Part shown: piece after piece, positions 39,252 to 64,000 of the stretch | Layout: each line of letters begins with the position of its first letter | Numbering within the stretch: position 1 is the first letter of the stretch | Assembly (NCBI RefSeq): GCF_012295525.1 | Contig: NZ_CP051167.1 | Location: 3,765,501 to 3,829,500, forward strand | Length of the DNA: 64,000 nucleotides | Origin: Oxynema aestuarii AP17 | Lineage (GTDB): Bacteria > Cyanobacteriota > Cyanobacteriia > Cyanobacteriales > Laspinemataceae | Direction of reading: 5' to 3' | Made by a program: the position numbers and the translations under genes | The notes under the pieces: model-generated | The model's input: the letters and a program-made list of their open reading frames with translations, nothing else | Told to the model about the DNA's origin: nothing | Databases searched by the model: none

Positions 39252-41819
39252 ATGTTCACTTTTAGCAAAGCCCATGTTCTCCTCTCTCTGGCGCTGAGGC
39301 GAGTGATTTTACTCCTCGACGGGGCGATCGCCGCCAGCGTATGCTACGGCGTGCTACCCACAGCCGCTCAAATCATTCCCGATCGCACCTTGCCGAACCC
39401 TTCCCGGGTCGTTACGGGCGATCGCGCCGTCGAGATCGAAGGGGGAACCCAACGCGGCGGCAATTTATTTCACAGTTTCACAGAATTTTCGATACCGACC
39501 AACGGCGAAGCCAGTTTTAGCAACCCGGAAACCGTCAACCAAATCGTCACCCGGGTGACCGGGGGGAAACGGTCTGACATTGACGGCATGTTACGGGCGA
39601 ACGGAAGCGCGCATTTAATTTTAATCAATCCGGCGGGGATTCATTTCGGGGCCAACGCTCGCTTGGAGATTGGCGGCGCCTTCCTGGGGACTACGGCGCG
39701 ATCGCTGGAGTTTGCCGACGGGACGAGCTTCGACGCCGTCAACCCGCGAGAGCGACCGTTATTGACCGTCAGCGTGCCGATCGGGCTCAATCTGGGAGTC
39801 GAGTCCGGAAACATCCAGATAGACGGCTCCGGACACCAGCTCGCGCGGGTCGTACCGGGGATGTCCCCCGCGATCGAAGTAGGGGCAAACGAGGGGGGAT
39901 TGAGGGCGCGATCGCTCGCCTTCGTCGGGAGTGAGATTGCCTTGTCCGGGGGAATCGTGCGATCGTCGGGAGGGGCGATCGAATTCGCGAGCCTTCGCCG
40001 AGGGACGATCGCCGTCAACCCCGATGCTACGGGCTGGAATTTAGGCACGGGGGCGCTCGCCGACTACGGAAATGTCACCTTAACCCGGCGGGCCTTAGTC
40101 GATAGCAGTGGGGCGCCGTCCGGGCCGATTCGAGTCGTGGCGCGTCGGCTCAATGCGGAAGACGGCTCGGTATTTTTTGCTCAGAATCGAGGCAGTGAGG
40201 CGAGTGGGGCGATCGCCTTGCACGCCACCGACGCGATCCAACTGACCGGATCTACCGCCGGAGATAACATCGGCAGTGGGGCGATCGCCGAAACCTTCGC
40301 TACAGGTTCCGGAGCCGACATTTCCCTATCCAGTCCGATCGTGCAGTTAGTCGATGGCGGTAAAATTGAGAGCTTTAGCTTCGGGTCGGGGAGTGGCGGG
40401 GCGATCGAGATCGTAGCCTCGCAACAGATCGACTTGTTTGGCACCTCTCCCTTGAACCCGTTGGCAACCAGTCGGGTGATGACGATAAGTGCGGACATGG
40501 GAATCGCCGGAGCCATCGATTTGATGACCCCTCGGTTGAGTTTGTCTGATGGAGCCGTGATTTCCTCCATAGCGAGGGGATTGGCCCCTTCAGGAGCTTT
40601 ACGAATCAATGCCTCTGAAAAAATCTCTATTCATGGTTTCAATAGTTTCGATCGCAACAATTTCCAGCCGAGCATCCTCGGGTCTTCTACCTTTGGGGAA
40701 GGTCATGCGGGAACGGTAGAGATTCAAACGGCGCAGTTGAGTTTGAGTGAAGGGGCGCGTATTTCTTCTTCGACCTTTGCCAGTGGCGACGCGGGTAATA
40801 TTAGGATCGCCGTCGCCGAACGGATCGAATTGAGTGGCGAACTGCCCGGAAGCATTTTGCCCACGACGATCGAATCCGGAGCCGTTGGGCTCGACAGTTT
40901 CACTCGGCAACTGTTGGCGGTGCCGGAATTTCCCACGGGAGCGGGGGGAACGGTGAGGCTGAGTGCGTCGGAGTTGAGGGTAACCGACGGCGCCCGCATC
41001 GATGTCAAAAATGACGGAACGGGTAATGGCGGTCAATTAGAGATTGTCGTCGGTAACTTGCTATTGCGCGATCGCGGTTCCCTCTCGGCGACGACGACCT
41101 CCGGAGAAGGGGGCAATATCGAAATTGCCGTCGCGGGTAGGTTGCAACTGCAAGGGGGTAGCACGATCGCCACGAGTGCCGGGGGAACGGGGAATGGGGG
41201 CAATCTGCGGCTGTCCTCCCCAACGATCGCCGCATTGGGCAATAGCGATCTTGTCGCCAATGCGGTCGCCGGACGCGGGGGGAATATCGCGATCGATACC
41301 CAGGGGTTGTTTGGGATCGAGTTTCGCGACCGACCGACGCCCCAAAGCGATATTACGGCGAGTTCTCAATTCGGTCTTTCCGGAACGGTGACCCTCGCCA
41401 ATCCGGAAGTAAACGATCCGTCGAAATTAGTCGATTTACCGACGGGGATCGTCGAGCCGCGCGATCGTCTCGTCACCGGGTGCAGCCCCGGGGAGAATCG
41501 CTTTACCGTGACCGGACGCGGCGGTTTGCCGTTCGGTCCCGACGCGGTGGGAGCGAGCGATCGCCCCTGGCAAGATTTGCAAGATTTCAGCGATTCTTCC
41601 TCCTCTTTTCACTCGGACTCTTCCCCGACGATCGCCCGGGGACACTCACGAGGGATCCGGGTACCGGATGGCGATCGCTTAGAAGAAGCCAAAGGATGGG
41701 TCAAAGATCGGTCGGGAACCGTTCATTTACTGGTCGATCGGGTAGATAGGAGTCCCTTCGCAACGGGCGATCGCCCCGAAACCTGTGGTAATTTAACAAT
41801 AGAAAGTTTCCGTTTCTAA
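39252..41819 (+). CDS. Filamentous haemagglutinin-type secreted protein (TpsA)
   Basis: 855 residues. The N-terminal hydrophobic stretch ILLLDGAIAASVCYG ends near TAAQ, a likely signal cleavage. The two-partner secretion domain follows (IPDRTLPNPSRVVTGDRAVE, GGNLFHSFTEFSIPTNGEAS, SAHLILINPAGIHFGANARL) and matches the haemagglutinin activity domain. After it come beta-helix-like Gly/Ser-rich repeats (SGGAIEIVAS, GAGGTVRLSASELRVTDGAR). The C-terminal part has VTGCSPGENRFTVTGRGGLP, common in cyanobacterial members. Such proteins are exported by a TpsB/FhaC pore; no pore gene lies in the window. The TPR-CHAT gene follows on the same strand, 134 bases later. Role: adhesion, aggregation or defence, not resolved. 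Confidence 0.9.
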   Translation: MFTFSKAHVLLSLALRRVILLLDGAIAASVCYGVLPTAAQIIPDRTLPNPSRVVTGDRAVEIEGGTQRGGNLFHSFTEFSIPTNGEASFSNPETVNQIVTRVTGGKRSDIDGMLRANGSAHLILINPAGIHFGANARLEIGGAFLGTTARSLEFADGTSFDAVNPRERPLLTVSVPIGLNLGVESGNIQIDGSGHQLARVVPGMSPAIEVGANEGGLRARSLAFVGSEIALSGGIVRSSGGAIEFASLRRGTIAVNPDATGWNLGTGALADYGNVTLTRRALVDSSGAPSGPIRVVARRLNAEDGSVFFAQNRGSEASGAIALHATDAIQLTGSTAGDNIGSGAIAETFATGSGADISLSSPIVQLVDGGKIESFSFGSGSGGAIEIVASQQIDLFGTSPLNPLATSRVMTISADMGIAGAIDLMTPRLSLSDGAVISSIARGLAPSGALRINASEKISIHGFNSFDRNNFQPSILGSSTFGEGHAGTVEIQTAQLSLSEGARISSSTFASGDAGNIRIAVAERIELSGELPGSILPTTIESGAVGLDSFTRQLLAVPEFPTGAGGTVRLSASELRVTDGARIDVKNDGTGNGGQLEIVVGNLLLRDRGSLSATTTSGEGGNIEIAVAGRLQLQGGSTIATSAGGTGNGGNLRLSSPTIAALGNSDLVANAVAGRGGNIAIDTQGLFGIEFRDRPTPQSDITASSQFGLSGTVTLANPEVNDPSKLVDLPTGIVEPRDRLVTGCSPGENRFTVTGRGGLPFGPDAVGASDRPWQDLQDFSDSSSSFHSDSSPTIARGHSRGIRVPDGDRLEEAKGWVKDRSGTVHLLVDRVDRSPFATGDRPETCGNLTIESFRF

Positions 41820-41953: not shown

Positions 41954-44638
41954 ATGTTTCGACTTAATAGCAACTGCCTGTGCTCCACCCGGGGGAACGC
42001 GGGCTTGTGGGATCGTCGTCCGACCTGTCGGGAGGTTAAAACTAGCGATCGCCTGCGTTCGCTACCGCGATCGGTTCGTTCTTTTATTCGATTAGCCGTG
42101 TTGAGCGGCTTGCTCGTGGCGATCGCCCTTCCGGCGGCAGTCAGACCGTTGCACGCCCGAGGGGTGCAGCCTGCGGAAACAGTGGCGCTCCCCACTGCCG
42201 AGGGAGAAAGCAATCCGTTACAAGCAGGACGCCGCCTCTACGATGCGGGACGGGTGTTTGAGGCGACCCAACTTTGGGAAAGAGCGGCGCGCGATTATGC
42301 GGCGAGGGGCGATCGCCTCAACCAGGCCCTGAGTCAGAATTATTTGGGAGTAGCTTACCAGCAGTTGGGAGCGTGGGAGCGATCGCGATCGGCGATCGAT
42401 ACCAGCTTGGAGGTCCTGGGCGCCGAAAACCAGCTCGACCGCCGGGGTAATGCGATTCTCGCTCAAGCGCTCAATACCCTCGGCAACTGGCAACTGGCGC
42501 GGGGCCAAACCGAGGAAGCCCTCGAAACCTGGCGTCAAGCGCAAAGCGCCTACGAACGCGCCGAAAACCAAACGGGAACGATCGGCAGTCAAATTAATCA
42601 AGCCCAAGCCTTGCAAGCCCTGGGGCAGTACCGCCGCGCTCGGGCGCGCTTGGAAGAACTGGTCGAGAGCGTCCGAGGACAACCGGATTCGTCCTTAAAG
42701 GCCGATGCCTTGCACAGTTTGGGGATCGCCCTGCAAATGACCGGGGAATTGGAAGCCTCGAAAGCCGCTCTAGAAAACAGTTGGGCGATCGCGGAGCGCT
42801 TGGGCGATCGCGCTACCCTCAGTCAAAGTCTGCTCGGAATCGGCAATATCGCCCGGGATTTAGACCGCGACGAGGTCGCCCGGGCCTACTATCGCGAAGC
42901 GGCGAAGCAAGCGCCGGACGAGTTGAGTATCGTACAAGCTCGCCTCAACGAATTAAATTTGAACGTTCGGGGAGAGCGTTGGGCCGAGGCGATCGCCCTG
43001 GTGCCGGAGATCGAGCGCCGATTGGCGAATTTGAGTCCGTCGCGCCCGTCAATTTACGCCCGGGTCAACCTCGCCGCCCATTGGCTCCAAATCGACGAAC
43101 AGCAGCCCCAAACGGCGGCGCGAAGCCAAATTGCCGAGCTGCTGGCCACGGCGATCGCTCAAGCCCAGGAAATTGGAGACGAACGCGCCCAAGCCCACGC
43201 CCGTTACCAACTCGGGCAACTCTACGAACGCAACGGACAACTGGAACAAGCCCGTCACCTGACCGAACAAGCCCTGACCCTGGCCGATCCCCTGGAAGCG
43301 GAAGATATCGAAGCGCGCGCCGCGTGGCAGTTGGGACGGCTCTGGGTGCGAGAGGGACGGCGCGATCGCGCGATCGCCGCCTATGAAGATGCGTTCGAGA
43401 CCTTGCAAACCCTGCGCGCCGATTTGGTGTCGGTCAATACCGACGTGCAATTTAATTTTCAAGAAAGCGTCGAACCCCTGTATCGGGAGTTTGTCAGCTT
43501 GTTACTCGCACCGGATGCCCCGCAAGAGTACCTCGTGCGAGCGCGCGAAGTGATGGAAGCATTGCAACTGGCGGAACTCGATAACTTTTTCCGCGATAGT
43601 TGCTTGGAGACCAAACCGACCCAAATCGACCGGATCGACCCGGAAGCGGCGGCGATTTATCCGATCGTGCTCGCAGATCGCCTCGAAGTCATCGTTTCGA
43701 TTCCCAATCGTCCCCTGAGCCACTACGCTACAACCTTGAGCCGCGATCGCGTCGAGCAGACCTTGCAACAACTCTACATGTCTTTATTCTTGGGCTATTC
43801 TGGGAACGAGCGGTTGCAATGGTCGCGCCAAGTTTACGACTGGCTGATCCGCCCCGCCGTTGACGAACTCGACGCCGCCGGGATTAAAACCCTCGTTTTC
43901 GTTCTCGACGGCTGGTTTCGGAATGTGCCGATGGGCGCACTCTACGACGGTCAGCAGTATCTCGTCGAGCGCTACGGCGTGGCGCTCTCCCCGGGATTGC
44001 AACTGTTTCCCGAAGGACTCAAACGCAGCGATTTGAACGTGTTGGCCGTCGGACTGACCGAAGCGCGACAGGGATTTTCGGCGTTGCCGGGAGTGGAACG
44101 GGAAGTGCGACAAATTGAATCCGATCTCAAATCGGAAGTTTTGCTCGATCGCCAATTTACCCGGGAGAATTTCCAACAGTGGGTCAATGCCAAATCGTTT
44201 CGCGTCGTCCATTTAGCCACTCACGGACAATTCAGTTCCCGTCCGGAAGAGACGTTCTTGCTGACTTGGAACGATCGCATCGACGTTAAAGCGTTCGAGC
44301 GCTTGTTGGAAAATCGCGAGCAAGCCGAATTTTATCCGATCGACCTGCTCGTTCTCAGTGCCTGTCAAACGGCGTCGGGAGACAAACGCGCCACCCTCGG
44401 ATTGGCCGGATTTGCCTTGCGTTCCGGGGCGCGCAGCACCTTGGCGACCTTGTGGTCCGTCAGCGATCGCTCGACTGCCGAGTTAATGGGGTACTTCTAC
44501 GACTTTCTCGCTCGCGAGGATCTCAAGCTCAGTAAAGCTGAAGCCTTGCGTCGGGCGCAATTGCGGCTGATTCAGGATCCGCAATACAACCATCCCTATT
44601 TTTGGGCGCCGTTCGTCTTAGTCGGGAATTGGTTGTAA
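41954..44638 (+). CDS. TPR-CHAT protein (caspase-fold peptidase), exported
   Basis: 894 residues. A hydrophobic segment FIRLAVLSGLLVAIALPAAV near 45-65 suggests a signal or anchor, after an unusually long N-tail; the true start may be later than ATG 41954. TPR repeats fill ~80-480 (RLYDAGRVFEATQLWERAAR, LNQALSQNYLGVAYQQLGAW). The C-terminal CHAT domain has VVHLATHGQFSSRPEETFLL with catalytic His (H757) and LLVLSACQTASGDKRATLGL with catalytic Cys (C804), both intact. CHAT peptidases are related to caspases and separase. The neighbours, a secreted haemagglutinin and a DUF928 protein, suggest a periplasmic protease for an exported system. Confidence 0.9.
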   Translation: MFRLNSNCLCSTRGNAGLWDRRPTCREVKTSDRLRSLPRSVRSFIRLAVLSGLLVAIALPAAVRPLHARGVQPAETVALPTAEGESNPLQAGRRLYDAGRVFEATQLWERAARDYAARGDRLNQALSQNYLGVAYQQLGAWERSRSAIDTSLEVLGAENQLDRRGNAILAQALNTLGNWQLARGQTEEALETWRQAQSAYERAENQTGTIGSQINQAQALQALGQYRRARARLEELVESVRGQPDSSLKADALHSLGIALQMTGELEASKAALENSWAIAERLGDRATLSQSLLGIGNIARDLDRDEVARAYYREAAKQAPDELSIVQARLNELNLNVRGERWAEAIALVPEIERRLANLSPSRPSIYARVNLAAHWLQIDEQQPQTAARSQIAELLATAIAQAQEIGDERAQAHARYQLGQLYERNGQLEQARHLTEQALTLADPLEAEDIEARAAWQLGRLWVREGRRDRAIAAYEDAFETLQTLRADLVSVNTDVQFNFQESVEPLYREFVSLLLAPDAPQEYLVRAREVMEALQLAELDNFFRDSCLETKPTQIDRIDPEAAAIYPIVLADRLEVIVSIPNRPLSHYATTLSRDRVEQTLQQLYMSLFLGYSGNERLQWSRQVYDWLIRPAVDELDAAGIKTLVFVLDGWFRNVPMGALYDGQQYLVERYGVALSPGLQLFPEGLKRSDLNVLAVGLTEARQGFSALPGVEREVRQIESDLKSEVLLDRQFTRENFQQWVNAKSFRVVHLATHGQFSSRPEETFLLTWNDRIDVKAFERLLENREQAEFYPIDLLVLSACQTASGDKRATLGLAGFALRSGARSTLATLWSVSDRSTAELMGYFYDFLAREDLKLSKAEALRRAQLRLIQDPQYNHPYFWAPFVLVGNWL

Positions 44639-44915: not shown

Positions 44916-46067
44916 ATGAAGCGATTGAAACTGTATTTTTCCTACCCTTTACTCCTTTTCAGTGTGGCGGGTAGTCTCCTCTGGCTCGCTGCCGCCAGCG
45001 AAGCCGCCCGGGCGGGCGATCGCCACGCCCCCAGCGACTGGTCGGCTCCCAGCCGAGGGCAAATCAGCTTAAACTTCCAACCCCCCGGCGATGCGGCGCC
45101 TTTGGATACCACCGGAGGCGGCACGCGCGGCACGGTTAATTTTAAACCCCCCGGCGATGCGGCGCCTGCCAACTCCCTCGGCGGCGGCACCCGAGGGAAT
45201 ATCAACTTCCAAGCTCCCGGCGATGCGGCTCCGAATAACAGCGCTTCCGGCGGGACGCGCGGAAATGTGGGTTTCCAAGCTCCCGGCGATGCGGCTCCGA
45301 ATAACAGCGCTTCCGGCGGGACGCGCGGAAATGTGGGTTTCCAAGCTCCCGGCGATGCGGCTCCGAATAACAGCGCTTCCGGCGGGACGCGCGGAAATGT
45401 GGGCTTTGAGGCGCCGGGAGAAGCCGCCCCAAGTAACAGCGCTTCCGGCGGGACGCGCGGAAATGTGGGCTTTGAGCCGCCGGGAGAAGGCGCCCCGAGT
45501 AACAGCGTATCCGGCGGCACTCGGAGTGAAGCCTTGGCGGAGGTCAAGCCCTTGTTGCCGTCTACACAACACGGACGCACGGTTTCGGCGCGTCCGACTA
45601 TCTTCGTATACGTGCCGCCTACCGACGCGCGCCAAGTGTTTTTCAGCTTGCAAGACCAATATCGTAACCATCACTATCAAACCGTCGTCGAAATTTCCGG
45701 GCGGGGAGGAATTGTGAGCGTGACTTTACCGGAAGACGCACCGGAATTGGAAATCGGCAAAGACTACGTGTGGTTTTTTGCCCCGATTCAACCGGGAGAA
45801 CCACTCGGACCCGATACGTACAAAGTGACCGGATGGGTCAAACGGGTGGAGTCCCCGAGTTCGGAAAACGCCAGGGTGAGTGCCAACCCCATGCAGCAGG
45901 CGACGACCTACGCGGAGTCGGGGATTTGGTACGATACCCTGTCGGTGTTGGCGGCGGCGAAACAAGCTCAACCGGAGGAGGCAACCTGGGTTGAGGAGTG
46001 GCACGACTTGCTCGAACAGGTGGGTTTGGAGGCGATCGCCTCTCAACCTTTCAGCGATCGGTTGTAG
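44916..46067 (+). CDS. DUF928 protein with N-terminal 22-residue tandem repeats
   Basis: 383 residues. A signal peptide (FSYPLLLFSVAGSLLWLAAA ... ARAG) precedes seven copies of a 22-residue unit like FQAPGDAAPNNSASGGTRGN plus V-G. DUF928 follows from ~215: PTIFVYVPPTDARQVFFSLQ, GIVSVTLPEDAPELEIGKDY, VWFFAPIQPGEPLGPDTYKV. A helical tail ends DLLEQVGLEAIASQPF. DUF928 is a cyanobacterial family of unknown function, usually found beside CHASE2 and CHAT genes, as here. Secretion to the periplasm is expected. The repeat number is likely variable because the middle copies are almost identical in DNA. The next gene starts 17 bases after the stop, so an operon with the kinase is likely. Confidence 0.9.
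   Translation: MKRLKLYFSYPLLLFSVAGSLLWLAAASEAARAGDRHAPSDWSAPSRGQISLNFQPPGDAAPLDTTGGGTRGTVNFKPPGDAAPANSLGGGTRGNINFQAPGDAAPNNSASGGTRGNVGFQAPGDAAPNNSASGGTRGNVGFQAPGDAAPNNSASGGTRGNVGFEAPGEAAPSNSASGGTRGNVGFEPPGEGAPSNSVSGGTRSEALAEVKPLLPSTQHGRTVSARPTIFVYVPPTDARQVFFSLQDQYRNHHYQTVVEISGRGGIVSVTLPEDAPELEIGKDYVWFFAPIQPGEPLGPDTYKVTGWVKRVESPSSENARVSANPMQQATTYAESGIWYDTLSVLAAAKQAQPEEATWVEEWHDLLEQVGLEAIASQPFSDRL
45075..45536 (+). repeat. Seven tandem 66-bp repeats inside the DUF928 gene
   Basis: Units start at 45075, 45141, 45207, 45273, 45339, 45405 and 45471. The copies at 45207, 45273 and 45339 are nearly identical in DNA, and outer copies diverge. Each encodes 22 residues with G-D-A-A-P and S-G-G-T-R-G. 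In-frame copy-number change by slippage would lengthen or shorten the stalk without a frameshift. Confidence 0.92.
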
Positions 46068-46083
46068 TTATCCTCAAAGCTAG

Positions 46084-48360
46084 ATGTGGCAGCAGGCGAG
46101 AGACCGAATCGAACAGTTACCGAAAGGGTTCGGCCCTTGGCTCAAACAATGGCGGGGAGTCTTGACCCTCGCCCCGGTGGTCGCCGCCAGCGCGATTGGC
46201 GGCAACCTCCTCGGGGTGTTTCAGCTATTGGAATGGGCTACTCTCGACAGTTTCGTGCTGTTGCGTCCGCAAGAGGCACTCGACTCGCGGATCGTCATTG
46301 TCACGATCTCCGAAGAAGATATTACTCGGGTCGGACAGTGGCCCGCGAGCGATCGGGTTCTGACCCGCGCCATGAGTCACATTGCGGCACAAAATCCGAC
46401 GGCGATCGGTCTCGACCTCTATCGCGATTTACCTGTCGAACCGGGTCACGACGAATGGGTCGAACTGATCGAATCGACCCCCAATTTAATCGGCATTCAA
46501 AAAGTGGCGGGAAACCCGGTGGCGCCGCCGCCGAACCTCAAAGATGCCGGACAAGTGGCGGCGTCGGATTTGATTTTGGATGCGGACGGGAAAGTGCGAC
46601 GGGGTTTGATTTTAATCGGGACGGAAAGCGGCGAATTTCTCGAAGGACTCGGGGCGAAATTGGCGCTGATGTATCTGGAACGGTCCGGTCTCGAACTCGA
46701 AACGGTAGACGCGGAGAATAATATTTATCGTCTCGGTCGGGCGTTGTTCGTTCCCCTACGCGGCAATGAAGGGGGTTATGTCGGCAAAGATACTGGGGGC
46801 TATCAGATTTTAATTAATTTTCGCGGCGGTCTCGATCGTTTCGAGCATATTTCGTTTACGGATGTGTTAGAAAACCGGATTCCTGAAGATTTGATGCGCG
46901 ATCGCCTCGTCTTCATTGGCGCTACGGCGGAAAGTTTAAAAGATATTTTTCAAACTCCTTATACCAATACGATTTTAGGGACGCCGGAGTTAACTCCCGG
47001 GGTTGTTATTCATGCCAATTTTGCCAGTCAAATTATCGCGGCGGCTCTCGACGGTCGCCCGATGTTGCGGGCGTGGACAAAACCGTTGAATTATTTGTGG
47101 ATTGTCCTGTGGTCGTTTACGGCGGCGATCGCCTGCTGGCTGGTTCTCGAACGCCACCAATCCCATCGTTACTTCTTCCTGCGCGCGATCGTCTTGGGCT
47201 GGCTCCCGACGACGGGAGCTCTGGTCACCATCACTTATCTCGCGTTTATTCACGGGTGGGCCATTCCGGTTTTTTCTCCCTTGTTGGCGGCGACTTTTTC
47301 GGCGATTTTAATCCTCAATTATTACAATCAATGGCAACTTAAAGTTACCAATGAAAAGTTAGAAACTGCCAATGAAAAACTCGAAGAATATTCCCACACT
47401 CTCGAAGACAAAGTGGAAGAACGAACCCGAGAGTTAAAAGATGCTTTAGAAAATTTGAAATCCACTGAGGCTCAACTGATTCACACTGAAAAAATGTCAA
47501 GTTTGGGACAACTCGTGGCCGGAGTTGCCCACGAAATTAACAATCCAGTCAATTTTATTTATGCCAATATTGACCATGCCAATGATTATTTAGAAGATCT
47601 AGTATATTTAATCAGATTATATCAAAAACAATATCCCGAACCGGATCCAGAAATTCTAGAAGAAATCGAAGATTTGGAGTTAGATTTTATTCTAGAAGAT
47701 TTTCCTAATTTGCTCGTTTCGATGAAATCGGGAGCCGAACGGATTGGCAAGATCGTGACGGGATTGCGGAATTTCTCGCGATTGGACGAGTCGGAAATGA
47801 AACCCGTGGATCTTCATGAAGGAATTGACTCTAGTTTATTAATTTTACAATCGCGATTGCAAAAAGAGGCGATCGAGATTATTAAAGAGTATGGAAATTT
47901 GCCGAAAGTAGCGTGTTATGCGTCTCAAGTCAATCAAGTTTTTATGAATATTTTGAGCAACGCGATCGATGCGTTGGTGGAAAGCAAAATGAAGGCGATC
48001 GCACCGTCTGAGAATGGCAACCACGACGGGGAGGAAGGAACGGAGCATCGCGGATTGAAGATTTGGATTACCACCAGCGTGTCCGGGTCGGATGCGGTGA
48101 TGGTGAAAATCACCGACAACGGACCGGGAATCAGTGAGGCGGTGGCTAAAAAGATCTTCGACCCATTTTTTACGACCAAACCCGTCGGGTCGGGAACCGG
48201 GCTGGGACTGTCGATCGGCTATCAGATTATTGTCGAAAAACACGGCGGCAAATTGAGCTGTTTTTCGCCCCCGGGGGGCGGCGCCCAATTTATTATCGAA
48301 ATTCCGCGATCGCCGCAAACGAAAAAACCCGGAGATCGCGCGGCGATCGCATCGGGATAG
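46084..48360 (+). CDS. CHASE2 sensor histidine kinase
   Basis: 758 residues. One membrane helix near 30-50, then the extracytoplasmic CHASE2 domain (SFVLLRPQEALDSRIVIVTI, PTAIGLDLYRDLPVEPGHDE, DRLVFIGATAESLKDIFQTP). Three membrane helices lie around 345-425 (LWIVLWSFTAAIACWLVL, IVLGWLPTTGALVTITYLAF). A coiled coil then leads to MSSLGQLVAGVAHEINNPVN with H483 and an ATPase domain (FMNILSNAIDALVES, DNGPGIS, GSGTGLGLSIGYQII). It senses an unknown extracellular signal. It lies 17 bases downstream of DUF928 and in line with the haemagglutinin and CHAT genes, so one transcription unit is possible. The cyclase at 58662 has the same sensor half with a different output. Confidence 0.93.
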   Translation: MWQQARDRIEQLPKGFGPWLKQWRGVLTLAPVVAASAIGGNLLGVFQLLEWATLDSFVLLRPQEALDSRIVIVTISEEDITRVGQWPASDRVLTRAMSHIAAQNPTAIGLDLYRDLPVEPGHDEWVELIESTPNLIGIQKVAGNPVAPPPNLKDAGQVAASDLILDADGKVRRGLILIGTESGEFLEGLGAKLALMYLERSGLELETVDAENNIYRLGRALFVPLRGNEGGYVGKDTGGYQILINFRGGLDRFEHISFTDVLENRIPEDLMRDRLVFIGATAESLKDIFQTPYTNTILGTPELTPGVVIHANFASQIIAAALDGRPMLRAWTKPLNYLWIVLWSFTAAIACWLVLERHQSHRYFFLRAIVLGWLPTTGALVTITYLAFIHGWAIPVFSPLLAATFSAILILNYYNQWQLKVTNEKLETANEKLEEYSHTLEDKVEERTRELKDALENLKSTEAQLIHTEKMSSLGQLVAGVAHEINNPVNFIYANIDHANDYLEDLVYLIRLYQKQYPEPDPEILEEIEDLELDFILEDFPNLLVSMKSGAERIGKIVTGLRNFSRLDESEMKPVDLHEGIDSSLLILQSRLQKEAIEIIKEYGNLPKVACYASQVNQVFMNILSNAIDALVESKMKAIAPSENGNHDGEEGTEHRGLKIWITTSVSGSDAVMVKITDNGPGISEAVAKKIFDPFFTTKPVGSGTGLGLSIGYQIIVEKHGGKLSCFSPPGGGAQFIIEIPRSPQTKKPGDRAAIASG

Positions 48361-51445: not shown

Positions 51446-51500
51446 TTTTTTTAAGTTCCTAAATTTAATCGGTCAATGTGATTGACTTTTTTTCATTTTT

Positions 51501-53249: not shown

Positions 53250-53353
53250 TATAATTGCGCTTCCCTTTGTCTTTTCTATGATTCAACTAACCGAGTTAAG
53301 CCTCAACAAATTGAATTCATCGCCTAAAAATTGACTCAATTCACTAAATTAAT

Positions 53354-55117: not shown

Positions 55118-55824
55118 TGTTTTATTATCATCGAATATTTAGCGATAATAAGCTCAATATTATTCCTTTCTTACTGATTATCACTGTCGATTGTTTGGCT
55201 TTGAGTTTGGCGATTCTTCTAGCAGTATTTTCCGGGTTGGAACCGACCCATTTTATGGAAGAAGGAGAACCGATCACCTGGTTTTCGGCGGGACAATTGG
55301 CGGCGATCGGGGCGATCGCCGCGATCGTTGGCGCAATTCGTTTCCGCGATCGCTACTCTCGAAAAATCCCCCATGCTTCCCCCTGGATTTGGTTTTTTAT
55401 CGCTACTTGTTTCTGGTTTCTCGGGCTTGACGAACTCCAAGAAATCCACGAATCGATCGACCTATGGATTCATGAATTATTGAACATCGACCAAAGCCAT
55501 TTGAGCGATCGCCTCGACGATCTAGTTATTTTACTGTATGGGGCTGTGATGGGATTTGTTCTTTATAAAAATAAGCGCGAATTAAAACAATTCCGACAAG
55601 TGTGGAAATTATTAAAATTAGGAATTTATACGGCGATCGCGATGGTGATTCTCGATGCTATCACCAATCAAAATGATATTATTGCTAGTGAAACCGTCAA
55701 CGAATGGGTGGGAACTATTGAAGAATGCTTTAAAATTGGTGCTGAAGGCATCTTTTTATCGGTGAGTTACTACTGTTTGCAAATTGCTAAAATTTCGAGC
55801 ATTAGCAAACTCGAAAATAACTAA
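55117..55824 (+). CDS. Membrane protein of unknown function with D-E-x-x-E-I-H-E motif
   Basis: 235 residues from ATG 55117, overlapping the previous stop by one base. An upstream TTG at 55090 would overlap more and is less likely. Five or six membrane helices: IIPFLLIITVDCLALSLAIL, GQLAAIGAIAAIVGAIRF, IWFFIATCFWFLGLDELQEI, DLVILLYGAVMGFVL, LGIYTAIAMVILDAI. The motif LDELQEIHESIDLWIHELL and the later WVGTIEECFKIGAEG place acidic and His residues near the membrane surface, possibly metal ligands. The operon position between GT-C-like genes suggests a part in envelope glycan or lipid metabolism. Confidence 0.65.
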   Translation: MFYYHRIFSDNKLNIIPFLLIITVDCLALSLAILLAVFSGLEPTHFMEEGEPITWFSAGQLAAIGAIAAIVGAIRFRDRYSRKIPHASPWIWFFIATCFWFLGLDELQEIHESIDLWIHELLNIDQSHLSDRLDDLVILLYGAVMGFVLYKNKRELKQFRQVWKLLKLGIYTAIAMVILDAITNQNDIIASETVNEWVGTIEECFKIGAEGIFLSVSYYCLQIAKISSISKLENN

Positions 55825-55842
55825 ATCTGGAGGGCGATCGCC

Positions 55843-57483
55843 TTGAATCAAAATCCTTTTAATTCTACAAATAATCCCGATCGCCTCAAAATTGCGATCG
55901 CTTTGAGTGCGATCGTAGGCGTCAGCTTAATTATTAATATTATCGGCATTAATTGGGGATTACCGAGTACGATCGGCTGGGCCCCAGACGAACTCATTCC
56001 CTTACGAGTTTTAGAGGGATTAGAAAAAGGTTTTTCCAATGGGTGGTATTACAAATACCCACCCTTTCACTTCTATATTTTAGCCCTTCTCTATTCTCCT
56101 TTCTGGATTCTGCATCAATTCCAGATAGTTGACATTTACAGCAGTGAAATTTATACGATTTTATTTTATCTCGGTCGCGGTCTGACTTTGCTCATCTCTG
56201 TCGGCTTGCTGCTGGTGTTATACTTCTTGGCGTCGAAGGTTTTCGATCGCGCTTCTGCCCTCTTTTCTTTACTAATTATAATCGTCAGTTGTCCGTTTGT
56301 TTACTATTCAAAAACTCTCAATCTCGATATTCCGTATTTATTTTGGTTTTCCCTGTCGTTATTCTTCTATTTAAGAATTCTAGAACGACAACAATTACGA
56401 GATTATCTCCTCTTTTCTCTGATGGCGGCGATCGCTGTTGCTACAAAAGATCAAGCCTATGCTTTTTACCTACTCACGCCTCTAGTTATTATTTGGCAAC
56501 ACTATCGTTATTTAAAACAAGTCGATCCCGATATTCGTTTTAAAGACGCACTTTTAGATCGAAAAATTGTTTATTCGCTGTGGGTCGGATTCGGCGTATT
56601 TTTTCTCTTGCATAATCTTATTTTTAATTTGGAGGGTTTTTTCAAGCATGTTAACTTAATTACCTCCGGTAGTGCTCAAATTCGCCCCCGATACGAACAG
56701 AATCTCTGGGGACAATTAAAAATGTTTCGCCAAAGTTTGATCCATTTGCGCTTTTCTCTGGGATGGGGATTGTATTTTATTTCGATTTTGGGTTTCCTCA
56801 AAGTTGTTTCTAAGATAAGAAAGTATCGTTTATTCGCTTTTTTACTGGTTCCCCTCGTTTCTTACTATCTTTTTTATATTTGCATTGTTTGGTATAGTAA
56901 TATTCGTTATTTAATGCCCATTTTGTTAATTCTATCTCTGTGTGGCGGTAAATTTATTGCAGAATTTTTGGGAAGGCGATCGCCTTATCTCGCAGTTAAA
57001 GCGTTAGCCATTATTGCTATTTTTATTTACAGTTTTTCTTATTCGTTTACACTCAATATTTTGATGGTCAATGACTCCCGTTATCGGGTAGAAACCTGGA
57101 TGAATGAAAATATTGAAGCGAATGCACTGGTTTTGGGGGCGGGCGATCGCAAATATTTACCCAGACTGGAACCTTATCGTTCCCAAGTCATCACCGAACC
57201 CACCCTAGAAACAGTGACTAACCTCGATCCGGACTATATTGTTTTAACGAGTGCTTACGATATTCGTCGGTTTGAAAGTGGGACGCCGGAATATCAGTTT
57301 TTTGCCGAACTGCAAGATCGTAAATTACCTTATCGTCTGCAATTTAGATATCAATATCGACCGCAATGGTATTTTTTCAATCGCCAAGAATTGGAATATC
57401 GCAATGTAGACGATCGCTATATTTACTCAAATTTCGATAAAATCGATCCGGAAATTACTATTTTTCAAAAAGTTCGGGAATAA
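55843..57483 (+). CDS. GT39/ArnT-like membrane glycosyltransferase
   Basis: 546 residues, about ten to twelve membrane helices. It starts at TTG 55843, with GGAGGG 8 bases before. The first loop has GLPSTIGWAPDELIPLRVLE with the acidic DE pair typical of PMT/ArnT catalysis. Then NGWYYKYPPFHFYILALLYS, the helix SALFSLLIIIVSCPFVYYSK, and DIPYLFWFSLSLFFYLRI. Such enzymes transfer a sugar from a polyprenyl-phosphate carrier to protein or lipid. The GT2 gene that follows, in the opposite direction, is of the kind that makes polyprenyl-phosphate sugars, so donor synthesis and use may sit together. Confidence 0.8.
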   Translation: MNQNPFNSTNNPDRLKIAIALSAIVGVSLIINIIGINWGLPSTIGWAPDELIPLRVLEGLEKGFSNGWYYKYPPFHFYILALLYSPFWILHQFQIVDIYSSEIYTILFYLGRGLTLLISVGLLLVLYFLASKVFDRASALFSLLIIIVSCPFVYYSKTLNLDIPYLFWFSLSLFFYLRILERQQLRDYLLFSLMAAIAVATKDQAYAFYLLTPLVIIWQHYRYLKQVDPDIRFKDALLDRKIVYSLWVGFGVFFLLHNLIFNLEGFFKHVNLITSGSAQIRPRYEQNLWGQLKMFRQSLIHLRFSLGWGLYFISILGFLKVVSKIRKYRLFAFLLVPLVSYYLFYICIVWYSNIRYLMPILLILSLCGGKFIAEFLGRRSPYLAVKALAIIAIFIYSFSYSFTLNILMVNDSRYRVETWMNENIEANALVLGAGDRKYLPRLEPYRSQVITEPTLETVTNLDPDYIVLTSAYDIRRFESGTPEYQFFAELQDRKLPYRLQFRYQYRPQWYFFNRQELEYRNVDDRYIYSNFDKIDPEITIFQKVRE

Positions 57484-57579
57484 GAAGCCTAAATTTTAAA
57501 ACATTTTGATGCGGGCAGAATGCCCGCCCCCTAACAATCATTCAATCTAACAATTCAACATCTAAAATCTAAAATCCTT

Positions 57580-58494
57580 TTACCGACTGCGCTTGTCAAT
57601 CATATCTGCAAGGAGGGCAAACATCCCTAATTGAGTAGAAGTGACTAGTAAAATTAAAGTTCTTTCAGTTAAATCTTGACGGATAAAAAGATCTTGAAAC
57701 AGAGTAATTAAAAACCCCGAAAAAAAGACCCCTGCAACGGGTAAAAATACACGCAAAGGAGCAAAATAAACCCCGGTTCTGAGAATAATTTGTAAGAAAC
57801 GTAGAGTATCGCGAATCGGTTGAATTTTACTTTTGCCAATGCGGGGGTGATAGTCGATCGGTTCGTAATCGACAATATAATGATTCGTCAACATGGCGAT
57901 CGCGATCGTGGTGGTGAAACTGAAACCGTCCGGGAGAATGTTGAGAAACTGTTCGGCGATATCTTTGCGAAAGACGCGCAAGCCACTGTTGAGGTCGGGG
58001 ATGCGACATCGGGTGACCCATTCGGCGAAGCGGACGAGAAACCATTTGGGGATTTTGCGGAGGTTGGAATAGCGGACGTTGGCGCCGATGCGGGCGCCGA
58101 TGACCATGTCGGCGTCGCGAGTGAGGGCGACGAGGTGGGGAATACGATCGCTCGGATAGGTTCCGTCGGCGTCGGTAATGGCGATTAAGGGATGTTTGGC
58201 GTGACGGATGCCTGTTTTGAGGGCGGCGCCGTAGCCTAAGTTGTTGGAGTGGTGGTAGACGCGCAGGTGAGGGCTGGGACGAGGGCGATCGCGCTGCTGC
58301 CACTGTTGTAAAATGGCGGCGGTGGCGTCGCTGGAACCGTCGTCGATCGCCAAAATTTCGTAAGTCGATCCGGCGCGATCGAGGATTTGTTCTAATTCGT
58401 CGAGGGTATGGGCGATCGCCAGTTCTTCGTTATAAACCGGAATAATCACCGAAAATGGCAGATTTTCGCCGCGATCTCGTTCGATAGAGTCCAT
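57580..58494 (-). CDS. Family 2 glycosyltransferase, polyprenyl-phosphate sugar synthase type
   Basis: 304 residues. FSVIIPVYNEELAIAHTLDE and YEILAIDDGSSDATAAILQQ form the GT-A nucleotide-sugar site. HPLIAITDADGTYPSDRIPH is the D-x-D region, and IPDLNSGLRVFRKDIAEQFL the acceptor loop. Two membrane helices end the protein (FAPLRVFLPVAGVFFSGFLITLF and TLILLVTSTQLGMFALLAD), as in DPM1/GtrB-like enzymes that charge dolichyl- or undecaprenyl-phosphate with a sugar. ATG at 58494. It converges with the GT39-like gene and is divergent from the CHASE2-cyclase gene. Confidence 0.9.
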   Translation of the reverse strand: MDSIERDRGENLPFSVIIPVYNEELAIAHTLDELEQILDRAGSTYEILAIDDGSSDATAAILQQWQQRDRPRPSPHLRVYHHSNNLGYGAALKTGIRHAKHPLIAITDADGTYPSDRIPHLVALTRDADMVIGARIGANVRYSNLRKIPKWFLVRFAEWVTRCRIPDLNSGLRVFRKDIAEQFLNILPDGFSFTTTIAIAMLTNHYIVDYEPIDYHPRIGKSKIQPIRDTLRFLQIILRTGVYFAPLRVFLPVAGVFFSGFLITLFQDLFIRQDLTERTLILLVTSTQLGMFALLADMIDKRSR

Positions 58495-58661: not shown

Positions 58662-60587
58662 TTGTTTACCAAGTTTTTTACGCGAGAGCTTCGAGATCGG
58701 CTGCACGCCGTGCGCCAGTCGCTGACGGCGACGCGGATCTTGATGGCGGTGGCGATCGCCGTGTTAATTGCGGGCTTACTGCTGGCGCAAACTTGGGGAT
58801 GGACCCAAAGCTTAGAACTGGCGGTGTTCGATCGCATGGTGCAGATGCAGCCCGATCCCGGCCCGGACCCGCGCCTGTTGGTGGTCGAAATTACCGAGTC
58901 TGACTTGCAACGTTTTCAAAAATGGCCGTTGAGCGATCGCATTTACGCCCACGCTTTGCAAGAACTCCAAAAACATCATCCCAAGGCGATCGCTCTCGAT
59001 ATTTTTCGCGATCTTCCCAATCCTCCCGGTTATGAGGAATTGGTCGCCCAATTGCAACAGCCTAACGTCATCGGTATTACCTATTTCGGCAATAGCAACA
59101 TCGAACGCATTCCGCCACCGCCGACGTTAGCAGAATCTCAGGTCGCCTTTAGCGATCTGCTCACCGATCCCGATGGGGTCGTCCGTCGCAATTTAATGTT
59201 TCTCCCTGAGGAGGACCGGATTTTCCAATCCCTCTCTTTGAGTCTGGCCCTGTTCGAGTTGGACGATCGCGGTCTGACCCCGAAAATCGCGGCAGATAAT
59301 AACTATCACCTGGGCAACGCTATTTTTACCCAACTCAAGCCCGATTCTGGCGGCTATCAAGCGATCGATGCGGGAGGCTACCAAATTCTCCTCCACTACC
59401 GATCGCGCGATCCCGCCCGCCGGGTCACTCTCGGCGATCTACTCGACGGACGCTACGATCCTGCGTGGGTCGAGGATAAACTGGTGGCGATCGGAACCAC
59501 GGCCCCGAGTTTAAAAGACACTTTTTTTACCCCCTACAGTGAAGTCGCCGAGGGCAATCGCAAAATGCCGGGGGTGTTGATTCACACCCAAATGGTCAGT
59601 CAGTTTTTGACTGCGGCGATCGACGATCGCCCCACTTTCTGGTTTTGGCCCGCATGGTTAGAAACCCTTTGGATTCTCACTTGGGAGGGCCTGGGAGTTT
59701 GTATCGGAATGCGGCTCAATCATCCGGCAATGCTGGCCGTTTGTACGGTCGTGAGTTTGTCCGCTTTGGCGCTAATTTCCTATCAATTCTTCCTCCACGG
59801 CGGCTGGATTCCCATAGCCACGCCCGGCTTAGGATTGTTGCTCGTATCGGCGGCGATCGTCACTTACGAACTCCAAAAAGCCCGACAACAACAATCGATG
59901 GTCATGCGCTTACTCGGTCAACAAACTTCGCCAGAAATTGCCCGAGCTCTTTGGCAACAACGCGACAGTCTACTCGAATCTGGAATGATTCCCGGAAGGA
60001 CATTAACTGCTACTGTATTGTTTAGCGACATTCACAATTTTACGACGATTTCCGAGCAGACTTCTACCGATCTTCTCATGAGTTGGCTCAATGAATATTT
60101 GCAAGCAATGACTCGAGAAGTCACGACCCATCACGGGATTGTTAATAAGTTTATTGGCGATGCCTTGATGGCGGTTTTTGGCCTTCCTTTATCCCATTAC
60201 AATACCTCAGAAGATGCCCGCAATGCCGTATCTTGCGCGTTGGCGATGCGCGATCGCCTCCGCGAACTCAATGACAACTGGGCCAAGCGCGGTTTACCCG
60301 TAATTCAAATTCGCATCGGAATTTACACCGGATCTGTAATGGCTGGCAGTTTGGGCGGGAAAGAACGGCTGGAATATGGCGTCATCGGCGATAGTGTCAA
60401 CATTGCTTCTCGTTTGGAAAGTTGCGAAAAAGACCGTCAAATCGATAATTGTCGGATTTTAATCGCCCGCCAAACCTTGATTCACGTTTACGGAGAATTT
60501 GAAGTCGAATTCTGGGGGCCGTTGCAACTCAAAGGTAAACAACATTCGGTGGAAGTTTATCGCGTTTTGGGTAAGTTGCGAAAGTAG
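58662..60587 (+). CDS. CHASE2-class III adenylate/guanylate cyclase
   Basis: 641 residues. A membrane helix near 27-47 (ILMAVAIAVLIAGLLLAQTW), then CHASE2 (LAVFDRMVQMQPDPGPDPRL, HPKAIALDIFRDLPNPPGYE, DKLVAIGTTAPSLKDTFFTP). Three membrane helices lie near 330-410, then a class III cyclase. Metal aspartates are D456 (LFSDIHNFTTISEQ) and D500 (KFIGDALMAVFG). Downstream are the transition-state region YGVIGDSVNIASRLES and G-K-E-R-L-E-Y. The substrate, ATP or GTP, is not certain. TTG 58662 is the assumed start; a later ATG at 58743 falls in the first helix. It heads a second CHASE2-DUF928-CHAT set. Confidence 0.9.
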   Translation: MFTKFFTRELRDRLHAVRQSLTATRILMAVAIAVLIAGLLLAQTWGWTQSLELAVFDRMVQMQPDPGPDPRLLVVEITESDLQRFQKWPLSDRIYAHALQELQKHHPKAIALDIFRDLPNPPGYEELVAQLQQPNVIGITYFGNSNIERIPPPPTLAESQVAFSDLLTDPDGVVRRNLMFLPEEDRIFQSLSLSLALFELDDRGLTPKIAADNNYHLGNAIFTQLKPDSGGYQAIDAGGYQILLHYRSRDPARRVTLGDLLDGRYDPAWVEDKLVAIGTTAPSLKDTFFTPYSEVAEGNRKMPGVLIHTQMVSQFLTAAIDDRPTFWFWPAWLETLWILTWEGLGVCIGMRLNHPAMLAVCTVVSLSALALISYQFFLHGGWIPIATPGLGLLLVSAAIVTYELQKARQQQSMVMRLLGQQTSPEIARALWQQRDSLLESGMIPGRTLTATVLFSDIHNFTTISEQTSTDLLMSWLNEYLQAMTREVTTHHGIVNKFIGDALMAVFGLPLSHYNTSEDARNAVSCALAMRDRLRELNDNWAKRGLPVIQIRIGIYTGSVMAGSLGGKERLEYGVIGDSVNIASRLESCEKDRQIDNCRILIARQTLIHVYGEFEVEFWGPLQLKGKQHSVEVYRVLGKLRK

Positions 60588-60619
60588 AAAAGAATTTTAC
60601 ATTTTCGCCGTTCGGCGGT

Positions 60620-60767: not shown

Positions 60768-61583
60768 ATGCCAGTTAAACATTTTCAAAACTCCATAATT
60801 TTTCGATCGCCGACCTCGGCGTTAGCGATCGCCACCCTCTTAGTCGTCGCGATCGCGCCGATGGGGAATCTGGCGACAGCCTCCGAAATCACGATCGCCG
60901 ATTCGCCTACCCCCAGAGTGAACGACCGTCCGGGAGGACGAGAACCGGGAGGCAACCGCGCGCCCCTTCCCGAAATTGACAACGCCCCGGGAGGACGAGA
61001 ACCGGGCGCAACCCGCAGCGCCAATGGATGTCTGGAAGAAGATAAAGCCTTGGCGATCGTGCAACCCGTCGGCGATCGCAACCGCATTACCACCAGTGCT
61101 ATCTATCCGACGTTCTTCTTCTACCTTCCAGAAACCAGCGCGCCCAAAGCCGAATTTGTTCTCACGGACGATAGGTATCAAGAAATTTACAAGACCACTT
61201 TCGACGTTTTCGATGCAGGTAGCACGATTCGGGTCACTATCCCCGCTTCTCTGCTGTCGCCGACATTGGAAGTGGGATCCGAGTATACTTGGTCTTTTTC
61301 CTTATTGTGCAATCCCAACGAACCCTCGGGGAATATCTTCATTCAAGGAACGATCGAACGGATGATGTCGAGTGAGGGATCGCAAGGGGAAATGATGGCA
61401 GCTTCGGCGAGCGATCGCCTCGCCCGCTTCCTGGAGGAGGAAAACTGGACCGATGCCCTGATTGCCTTAGCCGACCTGCGCCGCGAAAACCCGAATGACC
61501 GCAGTTTGCGCGATCGCTGGACGTCCCTCTTACAAGAGTTGGGACTCGAAGAGTACGCCAACGAACCGTTAGTGCAACCTTAA
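60768..61583 (+). CDS. DUF928 protein with P-G-G-R-E-P-G repeats
   Basis: 271 residues. A signal peptide (TSALAIATLLVVAIAPMGNLAT) precedes two PGGREPG units (VNDRPGGREPGGNR, DNAPGGREPGATRS). DUF928 follows from ~95: IYPTFFFYLPETSAPKAEFV, STIRVTIPASLLSPTLEVGS, YTWSFSLLCNPNEPSGNIFI. A tail similar to the first copy ends LLQELGLEEYANEPLVQP. The Cys pair (NGC and LLC) is absent from the other DUF928 protein here. It is periplasmic, and placed between the CHASE2 cyclase and a TPR-CHAT gene in the same direction, the mirror order of the first module. Confidence 0.88.
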   Translation: MPVKHFQNSIIFRSPTSALAIATLLVVAIAPMGNLATASEITIADSPTPRVNDRPGGREPGGNRAPLPEIDNAPGGREPGATRSANGCLEEDKALAIVQPVGDRNRITTSAIYPTFFFYLPETSAPKAEFVLTDDRYQEIYKTTFDVFDAGSTIRVTIPASLLSPTLEVGSEYTWSFSLLCNPNEPSGNIFIQGTIERMMSSEGSQGEMMAASASDRLARFLEEENWTDALIALADLRRENPNDRSLRDRWTSLLQELGLEEYANEPLVQP

Positions 61584-61667
61584 GCTGAAGATGAGTTATC
61601 ACGGGAAGAAGGGGAACGGCCCATCGGTGGCACCTTTCCCCGTGTCCATCTCAACGGTTCGAGCGTT

Positions 61668-64000
61668 ATGAGCTTTTCCGTATCTCTCTCACTTCTGCTA
61701 GCCTTCGGTCTTTCGGGAACCACCGATCGCCCGTTCGCGTCGCTCTCACCTAATCCCATCGTCACCCTGGCTCAAGGAGCTAGCGAAGACGACGCCCGGG
61801 GCGATCGCCTCCTGGAACAAGGACGCCAGCAGTTTAAAAACAGTCAGTTTCGCGAAGCGGCGGCGACCTGGGAACGGGCCTTAAGCGTGTATCGGGCCGA
61901 AGGCGATCGCCGGGGAGAACTGCAAGCGGTAGGGTTTTTGGGTATGATTTACCCGTACTTCGGCGAGTATCGAAAAGCCCTGGAGTTCGCCGAGCGACAG
62001 TTAGCCCTCGCCCGGGAATTGGGCGATCGCCAGGGAGAATCGAACGCCTGGGGCAATTTTTCGGTGATTTATATTTACCTCGGCGATTTTCCTCGGGCGA
62101 TTGAAGTCAGCGAAAAACTGTTAGAACTCTCCCGAGAACTCGACGATCGGGCGGGGGAACGCAGTGCGATCGGAAACTTGGGATTGATTTATTTATCTCG
62201 ATCGCAATACGGTAAGGCGATCGAATATATCCATAAAAGTTTGGAAATGAGCCGCGAAGATGGCAACAAGTTAAATCAATCCAATGGCTTGGGCAATCTC
62301 GGGGTCGCCTATCGGGCGATCGGCAATTACGATCGCGCCATCGAATATACCGAGGCACAATTGGAGATCGCCCGCGAGATCGGCAATCGCCAGCAAGAGG
62401 CCAACGCCCTCGGCAATCTCGGGATAATTTATATCTACAAGCAACAATATAATAGCGCCATCGAGTATAACGAACGACAGTTAGCGATCGCCCGCGAGAT
62501 CGGCGATCCGCGCGGTGCCAAAAATGCTTTGGGAAACATCGGCATCGTTGACTTCCTTCGCGAAGATTACGGCGGGGCGATCGCTCGGTTTAACGAGGTT
62601 TTGAGCCTCACGCGCCAGATCGGCGATCGCGCCGGGGAAGCCAATTCCCTCGGCAATCTCGCCCAAGCTCACCTGCGATCGGCGAACTATAGCGAAGCGA
62701 CGAACTACGCCCGAGAACAACTCGCCCTCGTGCGCGAATTGGGCGATCGCCGCGCGGAAGCCAACGCCCTGATGAGCTTGGGTGGCGCCCTGTTATACGA
62801 CGGTCGCAGTCAAGAGGCGATCCCGTTACTGCGTCAGGGGATTGAAGTCTTCGAGTCCCTAGTTCCCGGAGTCAGCAACGAGAATAAAATCACCTTACTC
62901 GATACTTTTGGCGACTCCTACGACCTCCTGCAACAGGCGCTGGTTCTGGTCGGTCGGGCCGAAGAAGCCTTAGAAGTCTCCGAACGCGGACGGGCGCGCG
63001 CGTTTGTCGAGTTATTAGCCCAACGTCGCAACCCGAATTCGACCGCCGAAATCGAGTTAGATCCGCCGACGATCGCCGATATCACACAAGTGGCACGCGA
63101 TCGCCAGGCGACCCTCGTCGAATATTCGATTGTCGATGCCGGATTATTAATTTGGGTCGTCACCCCGGAAGGTAACGTCCATCTGCGAACGGTGAAATTT
63201 TCCCCGGAACAACTGCAAAACCTTGCCGAACAAGGACGGGTCAGTGCTGCCGGAGGTGTCATTCTCAACGAAAACGAGATCGCCTTTGCGAATGCCGTGC
63301 GCGGCACGCGAGCGGCCCTCAACTTCAACCAAAGTGCCGCGCAAGAACAAGCGAATGCGGTAGAAGAGATCGAAGAAGAGCGCGAAAAGTTAAAAGAACT
63401 TTACAACCTCCTCATCAAACCGATCGAAGATCTGTTACCGGACAATCCCGACGCGCGGATCGTGTTTATTCCCGACGCTTCCTTATTTTTGGTGCCCTTT
63501 CCGGCGTTAATCGACGATCGCGACCGCTATTTAATCGAACGCTACACCCTGTTAAGCGCTCCTTCGATTCAAGTGCTGCAACTGACCGAACGGCGATCGC
63601 CCCCCTCCTCATCCGAGTCCGGCGAGGGGGAATTTTTAGTCGTGGGTAACCCGAAAATGCCCCCGGTTTACTCTCTAGAAAGGAATCAGCTAGAACCCTT
63701 GCGGGCGCTCCCTTACGCCCAAGCGGAGGCGATCGAAATTGCCAAAATTGTTAAAACCTTGGCTTTAGTCGGCGAGAAAGCCACCGAAGCGCTGCTCAAA
63801 CAACGGATGACCCAGGCGCGGGTCATTCACCTGGCGACTCACGGACTGATTGACGACCGTCACGCGATGGATAGCGCGATCGCGGTAACCCCGGATAGCG
63901 ATAACGACGGCTTGCTGACCGCCGAGGAAATTTTCGAGTTAGACCTCAAGGCGGATTTAGTAGTGCTGTCCGCTTGCGAGACCGGATTGGGGGAGATTAC
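61668..64000 (+). CDS. TPR-CHAT protein, exported (3' end cut by window edge)
   Basis: 777 residues are visible from ATG 61668; the frame is still open at the right edge. The hydrophobic N-terminus MSFSVSLSLLLAFGLSG suggests a signal peptide. About eight TPR units of 40 residues follow, of the kinesin-light-chain type with repeats of A-L-G-N-L-G and A-I-E-Y-x-E-x-x-L-x-I-A-R-E-I-G-D-R. The CHAT domain begins ~480 (RGRARAFVELLAQRR, VFIPDASLFLVPFPALIDDR). Catalytic His is H725 in VIHLATHGLIDDRHAMDSAI and Cys C770 in LVVLSACETGLGEI, close to the edge. It is probably co-transcribed with the DUF928 gene 84 bases upstream. Confidence 0.93.
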   Translation, partial: MSFSVSLSLLLAFGLSGTTDRPFASLSPNPIVTLAQGASEDDARGDRLLEQGRQQFKNSQFREAAATWERALSVYRAEGDRRGELQAVGFLGMIYPYFGEYRKALEFAERQLALARELGDRQGESNAWGNFSVIYIYLGDFPRAIEVSEKLLELSRELDDRAGERSAIGNLGLIYLSRSQYGKAIEYIHKSLEMSREDGNKLNQSNGLGNLGVAYRAIGNYDRAIEYTEAQLEIAREIGNRQQEANALGNLGIIYIYKQQYNSAIEYNERQLAIAREIGDPRGAKNALGNIGIVDFLREDYGGAIARFNEVLSLTRQIGDRAGEANSLGNLAQAHLRSANYSEATNYAREQLALVRELGDRRAEANALMSLGGALLYDGRSQEAIPLLRQGIEVFESLVPGVSNENKITLLDTFGDSYDLLQQALVLVGRAEEALEVSERGRARAFVELLAQRRNPNSTAEIELDPPTIADITQVARDRQATLVEYSIVDAGLLIWVVTPEGNVHLRTVKFSPEQLQNLAEQGRVSAAGGVILNENEIAFANAVRGTRAALNFNQSAAQEQANAVEEIEEEREKLKELYNLLIKPIEDLLPDNPDARIVFIPDASLFLVPFPALIDDRDRYLIERYTLLSAPSIQVLQLTERRSPPSSSESGEGEFLVVGNPKMPPVYSLERNQLEPLRALPYAQAEAIEIAKIVKTLALVGEKATEALLKQRMTQARVIHLATHGLIDDRHAMDSAIAVTPDSDNDGLLTAEEIFELDLKADLVVLSACETGLGEI

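Follow-up and report, generated by a model that had tools for sequence, protein, structure and literature searches.

A recurring cyanobacterial locus joining a secreted adhesin, a CHAT peptidase, DUF928 and a CHASE2 receptor

Receptors with a CHASE2 domain are common among bacteria, but what this domain binds is generally not known. The locus described here raises the question of whether a CHASE2 receptor, a DUF928 protein, a TPR-CHAT peptidase and a two-partner-secretion (TPS) adhesin, encoded side by side, belong to one system. The window, i.e. the whole 64,000-nucleotide stretch that was analysed, is part of a complete 6.36-Mb cyanobacterial genome and holds such a gene set (module A) and, further downstream, CHASE2, DUF928 and CHAT genes (unit B). 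The original prediction regarded the latter as a second copy of the former, with the gene order reversed and the output domain exchanged. The Pfam families of all genes of both units were confirmed (Table 1).

Table 1. Genes of module A and unit B (positions in the window)
Feature	Position	Strand	Basis
TpsA, filamentous-haemagglutinin-type exoprotein	39252-41819	+	Pfam TPS (PF05860), N-terminal, E 3.9e-56
TPR-CHAT cysteine peptidase (putative), module clade	41954-44638	+	Pfam, E 3.2e-63
DUF928, module A	44916-46067	+	Pfam, E 3.6e-50
CHASE2 receptor, histidine kinase output	46084-48360	+	Pfam CHASE2, HisKA and HATPase_c; TM segments
CHASE2 receptor, class III nucleotide cyclase output, unit B	58662-60587	+	Pfam
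DUF928, unit B	60768-61583	+	Pfam; tree position; orthologues
TPR-CHAT beside unit B	61668-64000, continuing beyond the window end	+	Pfam; tree; orthologous loci

Conservation of the gene set

Family matches in the source genome number 22 for CHASE2, 20 for DUF928, 47 for CHAT and 19 for TPS. A CHASE2 gene is found no more than 10 kb away from 16 of the 20 DUF928 genes, and a CHAT gene from 14, where random placement would give 1.4 and 2.7, respectively. Sixty DUF928 loci of 37 other cyanobacterial genomes, picked from the best-scoring matches and uncorrected for shared ancestry, had CHASE2 nearby in 41 cases (1.8 expected), CHAT in 27 (4.3 expected), TPS in 21 (1.9 expected) and TpsB in 14; the expectations derive from copy number alone, and no simulation attained the observed counts of CHASE2, CHAT or TPS. 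Among 67 class-level genomes, CHASE2 was found in all 49 that encode DUF928 versus 7 of the 18 that do not, and TPS in 48 of 49 versus 3 of 18. The co-occurrence of these families, anticipated from the window, thus goes well beyond random. Since many DUF928-CHASE2 pairs have neither CHAT nor TPS nearby, the protease and adhesin half appears to be optional.

Module A is a conserved locus and an instance of a four-gene unit that recurs in many cyanobacteria. The four families cluster repeatedly in the source genome, mostly in the order TPS-CHAT-DUF928-CHASE2, and this full order is kept at 8 of 10 orthologues of the module A CHAT in relatives. A contig scan, for which a closer subset of the DUF928 alignment was used (the first being too divergent), yielded 80 loci biased towards type A. 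The four-gene locus is also present in, among others, Oscillatoria, Limnofasciculus, Microseira and Calothrix parasitica. CHAT-DUF928-CHASE2 was seen in Moorena, Prochloron, Symploca and Baaleninema. No TpsB gene adjoins module A, four being encoded elsewhere in the genome, one of them fused to TpsA. TpsB adjacency was found in other loci of the module A type: TpsB-TpsA-CHAT-DUF928-CHASE2 runs on a single strand at loci L126 and L133, and a Planktothrix agardhii plasmid carries, according to public annotation, haemagglutinin, ShlB, CHAT, DUF928 and CHASE2 genes. The association with a secreted adhesin, first noticed for module A, is therefore real and general, as adhesin and CHAT genes also lie together in relatives, other genera and Planktothrix and, outside the cyanobacteria, in Sphingobium and Sphingomonas (see below).

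The output domain is the changeable part. DUF928-linked CHASE2 proteins of the source genome carry kinase, cyclase, GGDEF or GGDEF-EAL outputs or occur as AAA- or CHAT-fused forms, and relatives have SpoIIE phosphatase or kinase-receiver-cyclase outputs at the module A locus itself. The change of output noticed in the window is thus seen even among orthologous loci, and it is the extracytoplasmic half that is conserved.

Unit B did not turn out to be a second module, either as a copy or in reversed order. CHASE2 and DUF928 are kept at nine loci orthologous to it (on the same strand in eight), and CHAT is absent from all nine within the 20-kb stretch. In the maximum-likelihood tree, the CHAT beside unit B (full gene ending at genome position 3829747, 859 aa) sits with generic TPR-CHATs outside the module clade, and the DUF928 of unit B groups with CHAT-less relatives. 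Judging from the orthologous loci, the CHAT tree and the DUF928 lineage, this CHAT is probably a bystander, a non-conserved neighbour of what would be a plain DUF928-CHASE2 pair devoid of protease and adhesin. The region between the two units (window 50498-58494) encodes, as judged by eye, a flippase-like membrane protein, a family 2-type glycosyltransferase and several multi-pass membrane proteins, two of which (51501-53249 and 53354-55117) are clear paralogues.

The CHAT peptidase and the adhesin

In the maximum-likelihood tree, one well-supported clade unites 34 of the 35 module CHATs with the TPS-fused CHATs; the mean column identity of the 35 proteins is 47%. The His and Cys of the dyad are kept in 82 of 82 module CHATs and, as predicted, are intact in the proteins of both units. 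A hydrophobic N-terminal segment, called by a simple hydropathy rule rather than by SignalP, is present in 36 of 37 complete DUF928- or CHASE2-linked CHATs, the exception being a fragment. Most other CHATs of the source genome likewise start hydrophobic, so that export seems to be a general trait of these proteins. The export signal foreseen for both CHATs is clear in module A; the one beside unit B has just a hydrophobic start lacking basic residues. TPS and CHAT are joined in one protein in six cases in the source genome, with CHAT as the C-terminal part; one such fusion (1643 aa) adjoins DUF928 and CHASE2. The N-terminal TPS domain of these fusions implies crossing of the inner membrane. 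Together with the predicted signal peptides and a lipoprotein signal in Niveispirillum (below), the single-ORF fusions bear out an extracytoplasmic rather than cytoplasmic location.

The predicted structure of the module A CHAT (pLDDT 84) has Csx29 and separase as its nearest folds, the top Foldseek matches being 8eey (Csx29, 4.9e-14) and 9hma (separase, 2.5e-13); the full-length rmsd values are large and fold class alone is claimed. Csx29 of Craspase and separase share with the module CHAT a TPR superhelix, a CHAT/separase-type fold and the His-Cys dyad. Whereas these enzymes are intracellular, export is predicted for the module CHAT, which is linked to TPS and CHASE2. Going by sequence and model, it is likely to be a catalytically active cysteine peptidase of the separase/Csx29 type that works outside the cytoplasm. 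No paper joining two-partner secretion with CHAT was retrieved in a literature search.

Some loci combine these domains in other ways. A TpsA-TpsB fusion at positions 971517-976094 of the source genome (L078; TPS, POTRA_2 and ShlB domains) is followed directly by a CHAT gene, and similar cases were seen at L137 and L149. In the source genome, CHASE2 proteins with an N-terminal CHAT-like domain retaining the GH and NSC motifs are encoded at 979689-982004 (L078), adjoining a DUF1822 protein, and at 1114729-1117158 (L079). The CHAT-like domain of these receptors would be cytoplasmic, with an exported CHAT and DUF928 encoded alongside. At 6238819-6247299 (L093), next to a CHASE2 cyclase gene, two TPS adhesin genes flank one for an RPE65-type carotenoid oxygenase.

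The TpsA of module A has the TPS domain that defines two-partner secretion and also matches adhes_NPXG. The locus resembles FHA/FhaC-type systems in its TPS-domain exoprotein and, where complete, in the adjacent TpsB, and differs from them by an additional exported CHAT peptidase, DUF928 and CHASE2 receptor. Two candidate cleavage sites were considered. The C-terminal Cys...TGRGGLP...Cys region is common to most of the TpsA proteins compared, and TGRGGLP was discarded as a CHAT site because it is near-universal regardless of CHAT adjacency (basic residues in 35 of 37 versus 26 of 30, p 0.40). DUF928 proteins encoded beside CHAT more often carry many GGxRG repeats, at least four copies being found in 16 of 77 CHAT-adjacent proteins versus 2 of 90 others. 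Yet the proteins with many copies come mainly from a single part of the DUF928 tree, which leaves these repeats suggestive only and not accepted as a substrate. DUF928s of type A often contain 4-15 tandem motifs including GG(G/A)(T/S)R, as at window positions 45207-45469 and at L113, L131, L226-L232, L241-L247 and L287.

DUF928 and other exported partners of CHASE2

DUF928 has no assigned function and is named by a single paper of the literature that was searched. An N-terminal signal-like segment was detected in 178 of 186 DUF928 proteins and a second TM segment in none; the export signals predicted for the proteins of module A and unit B are both present. The repeat stalks ascribed to both exist in module A (66-bp unit, 4.7 copies) but not in unit B, which has just two short GGREPG copies. 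The module A protein consists of the signal peptide, the stalk of 22-aa repeats (PGDAAPxNSASGGTRG), an Ig-like domain and a C-terminal helical domain. Its DUF928 domain was modelled by AlphaFold with a mean pLDDT of 90 as a beta-sandwich followed by helices, and the best match of this model among solved structures is the C-terminal domain of MtxA (4Z29; VIA Z 10.7 over 148 residues, rmsd 3.9), the runner-up scoring Z 7.8. Homology in sequence to MtxA or FecR found no backing in profile comparisons: 4Z29 was absent at E up to 10 when the DUF928 profile was compared with PDB sequences, the DUF928s of module A and unit B gave no Pfam FecR match, and no profile match of DUF928 to a FecR partner was obtained. 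The likeness to MtxA is thus one of fold and context, with homology unproven.

Exported proteins beside CHASE2 receptors have been described in Proteobacteria. MtxA of magnetotactic bacteria has a signal peptide and Ig-like and TPR domains, and its gene is followed by that of a CHASE2-adenylate cyclase (PMC4439547). It resembles DUF928 in being an exported protein with an Ig-like and a helical part encoded beside a CHASE2 receptor, and differs in that it shares no sequence similarity with DUF928 and is not known to have a CHAT or TPS partner. Burkholderia encodes exported proteins of the FecR type beside CHASE2 receptors, a FecR/LysM-CHASE2 kinase operon being known there (BiofilmReg, PMC5192318), and plasmids of Ruegeria, Methylocystis, Paracoccus and Phyllobacterium carry FecR-domain genes next to genes for CHASE2 cyclases. 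In these pairs, as in the DUF928 loci, an exported protein is encoded directly beside a CHASE2 receptor of variable output; module A has DUF928 in the place of FecR and, in addition, the CHAT peptidase and the two-partner-secretion adhesin. In Sinorhizobium meliloti, the inner-membrane CHASE2 cyclases CyaK and CyaD receive their signal through NsrA, a protein of the outer membrane (PMC7529298, PMC13001267); NsrA, however, is a beta-barrel receptor, and no CHAT protease or TpsA has been described there. The gene for the sole FecR-domain protein found in the source genome lies immediately upstream of a DUF928-less CHASE2 cyclase gene (genome 4891263-4894410, L074), one random gene having a chance of about 1% of lying as near any CHASE2. 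In the light of this arrangement, DUF928 looks like the cyanobacterial counterpart of FecR/MtxA-type CHASE2 partners.

Domain distances of DUF928 and CHASE2 correlate among the 14 paralogous pairs of the source genome (r 0.61, p 0.0005), a relation that duplication of whole units alone could also produce. CHAT and TPS tree distances are uncorrelated in the same genome (r 0.02, n=8), which suggests that adhesins may be swapped or shared. CHASE2-DUF928 is also borne by a contig labelled Candidatus Gracilibacteria (JAAUUT010000051.1, L273), probably a mis-binned cyanobacterial one.

Comparable loci in Alphaproteobacteria and possible function

Plasmid pMSHV of Sphingobium herbicidovorans carries, in one run, genes for a CHAT protein with the dyad motifs, a CHASE2-cyclase, a 239-aa exported protein, TpsB and a 2092-aa adhesin-like protein, the last giving no Pfam TPS match and a weak filamentous-adhesin match only. 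Close homologues of the CHAT and 239-aa proteins are encoded on 11 other Sphingobium plasmids, on one of which the gene order was confirmed. In Niveispirillum, the end of a repetitive protein is followed by a CHAT that bears a lipoprotein-type signal (LLLLSAC-AGKG), and then by a CHASE2 protein. In Sphingomonas parapaucimobilis, CHAT comes directly after a haemagglutinin gene, CHASE2 being absent.

On balance, module A is probably one envelope-spanning system and unit B a simpler DUF928-CHASE2 pair. TpsA would be secreted to the surface through a TpsB encoded elsewhere in the genome, and TPR-CHAT would be exported and work as a cysteine peptidase beyond the cytoplasm. DUF928 may serve as an exported Ig-plus-helical adaptor binding the extracytoplasmic CHASE2 domain, a physical contact that we infer, and would thereby do for cyanobacterial CHASE2 what FecR/MtxA-type proteins appear to do in Proteobacteria. 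The receptor could then relay the state of the adhesin, protease and DUF928 assembly to whichever output domain it carries. Hypothetically, what the receptor senses is whether CHAT has cleaved TpsA or DUF928. A bolder version, to be taken as tentative, is a new form of trans-envelope signalling in which the exported caspase/separase-like CHAT cleaves the adhesin and/or the GGxRG stalk, DUF928 reports this cleavage to CHASE2, and the same principle, with a different exported adaptor, emerged in or spread to Alphaproteobacteria.

The genes might instead form two independent, merely neighbouring devices, TPS-CHAT maturing, trimming or releasing the adhesin and DUF928-CHASE2 regulating the operon or sensing something unrelated. 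The frequent solitary DUF928-CHASE2 pairs, the TPS-CHAT arrangement of Sphingomonas and the CHAT-TpsB neighbours devoid of DUF928 in the source genome speak for such a division. We nevertheless consider it rather unlikely, as the module CHAT clade is nearly restricted to DUF928- or TPS-linked loci, CHAT-linked DUF928s tend to group in the DUF928 tree, and the Sphingobium set of CHAT, CHASE2, exported protein, TpsB and adhesin recurs without DUF928. Contact-dependent antagonism or recognition, with TpsA delivering CHAT or another C-terminal effector and DUF928/CHASE2 acting as immunity or alarm, would account for the multiplied modules of a single genome and for the C-terminal CHAT of the fusions, the position that toxins occupy in CdiA proteins. 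This reading is improbable given how strongly the module CHAT is conserved; moreover, CHAT is in most cases encoded separately and has a Sec signal of its own, no variable toxin/immunity pair came to notice, and the TpsA C-termini that were compared are conserved rather than polymorphic. It is hardly credible that expanded families of envelope genes came to lie together through local duplication, with no functional tie. Every family involved is indeed expanded in this genome and the CHAT beside unit B would be exactly such a bystander, but the linkage in the 37 other genomes is well above the copy-number expectation, the gene order holds from one family to another, and Alphaproteobacteria have a comparable set.

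Under the favoured reading of module A as one system, exported partners of the DUF928, MtxA and FecR type are concrete, testable candidates for what CHASE2 listens to, and DUF928 itself gains a concrete, testable role as an exported CHASE2 partner. CHAT peptidases, familiar from the intracellular Craspase and separase, would now be placed in the bacterial envelope together with a secreted adhesin. Such loci are present in the cyanobacteria named above, Sphingobium has a related version, and the recurring unit points to an undescribed route by which the cell surface may be sensed or controlled from the cell interior.
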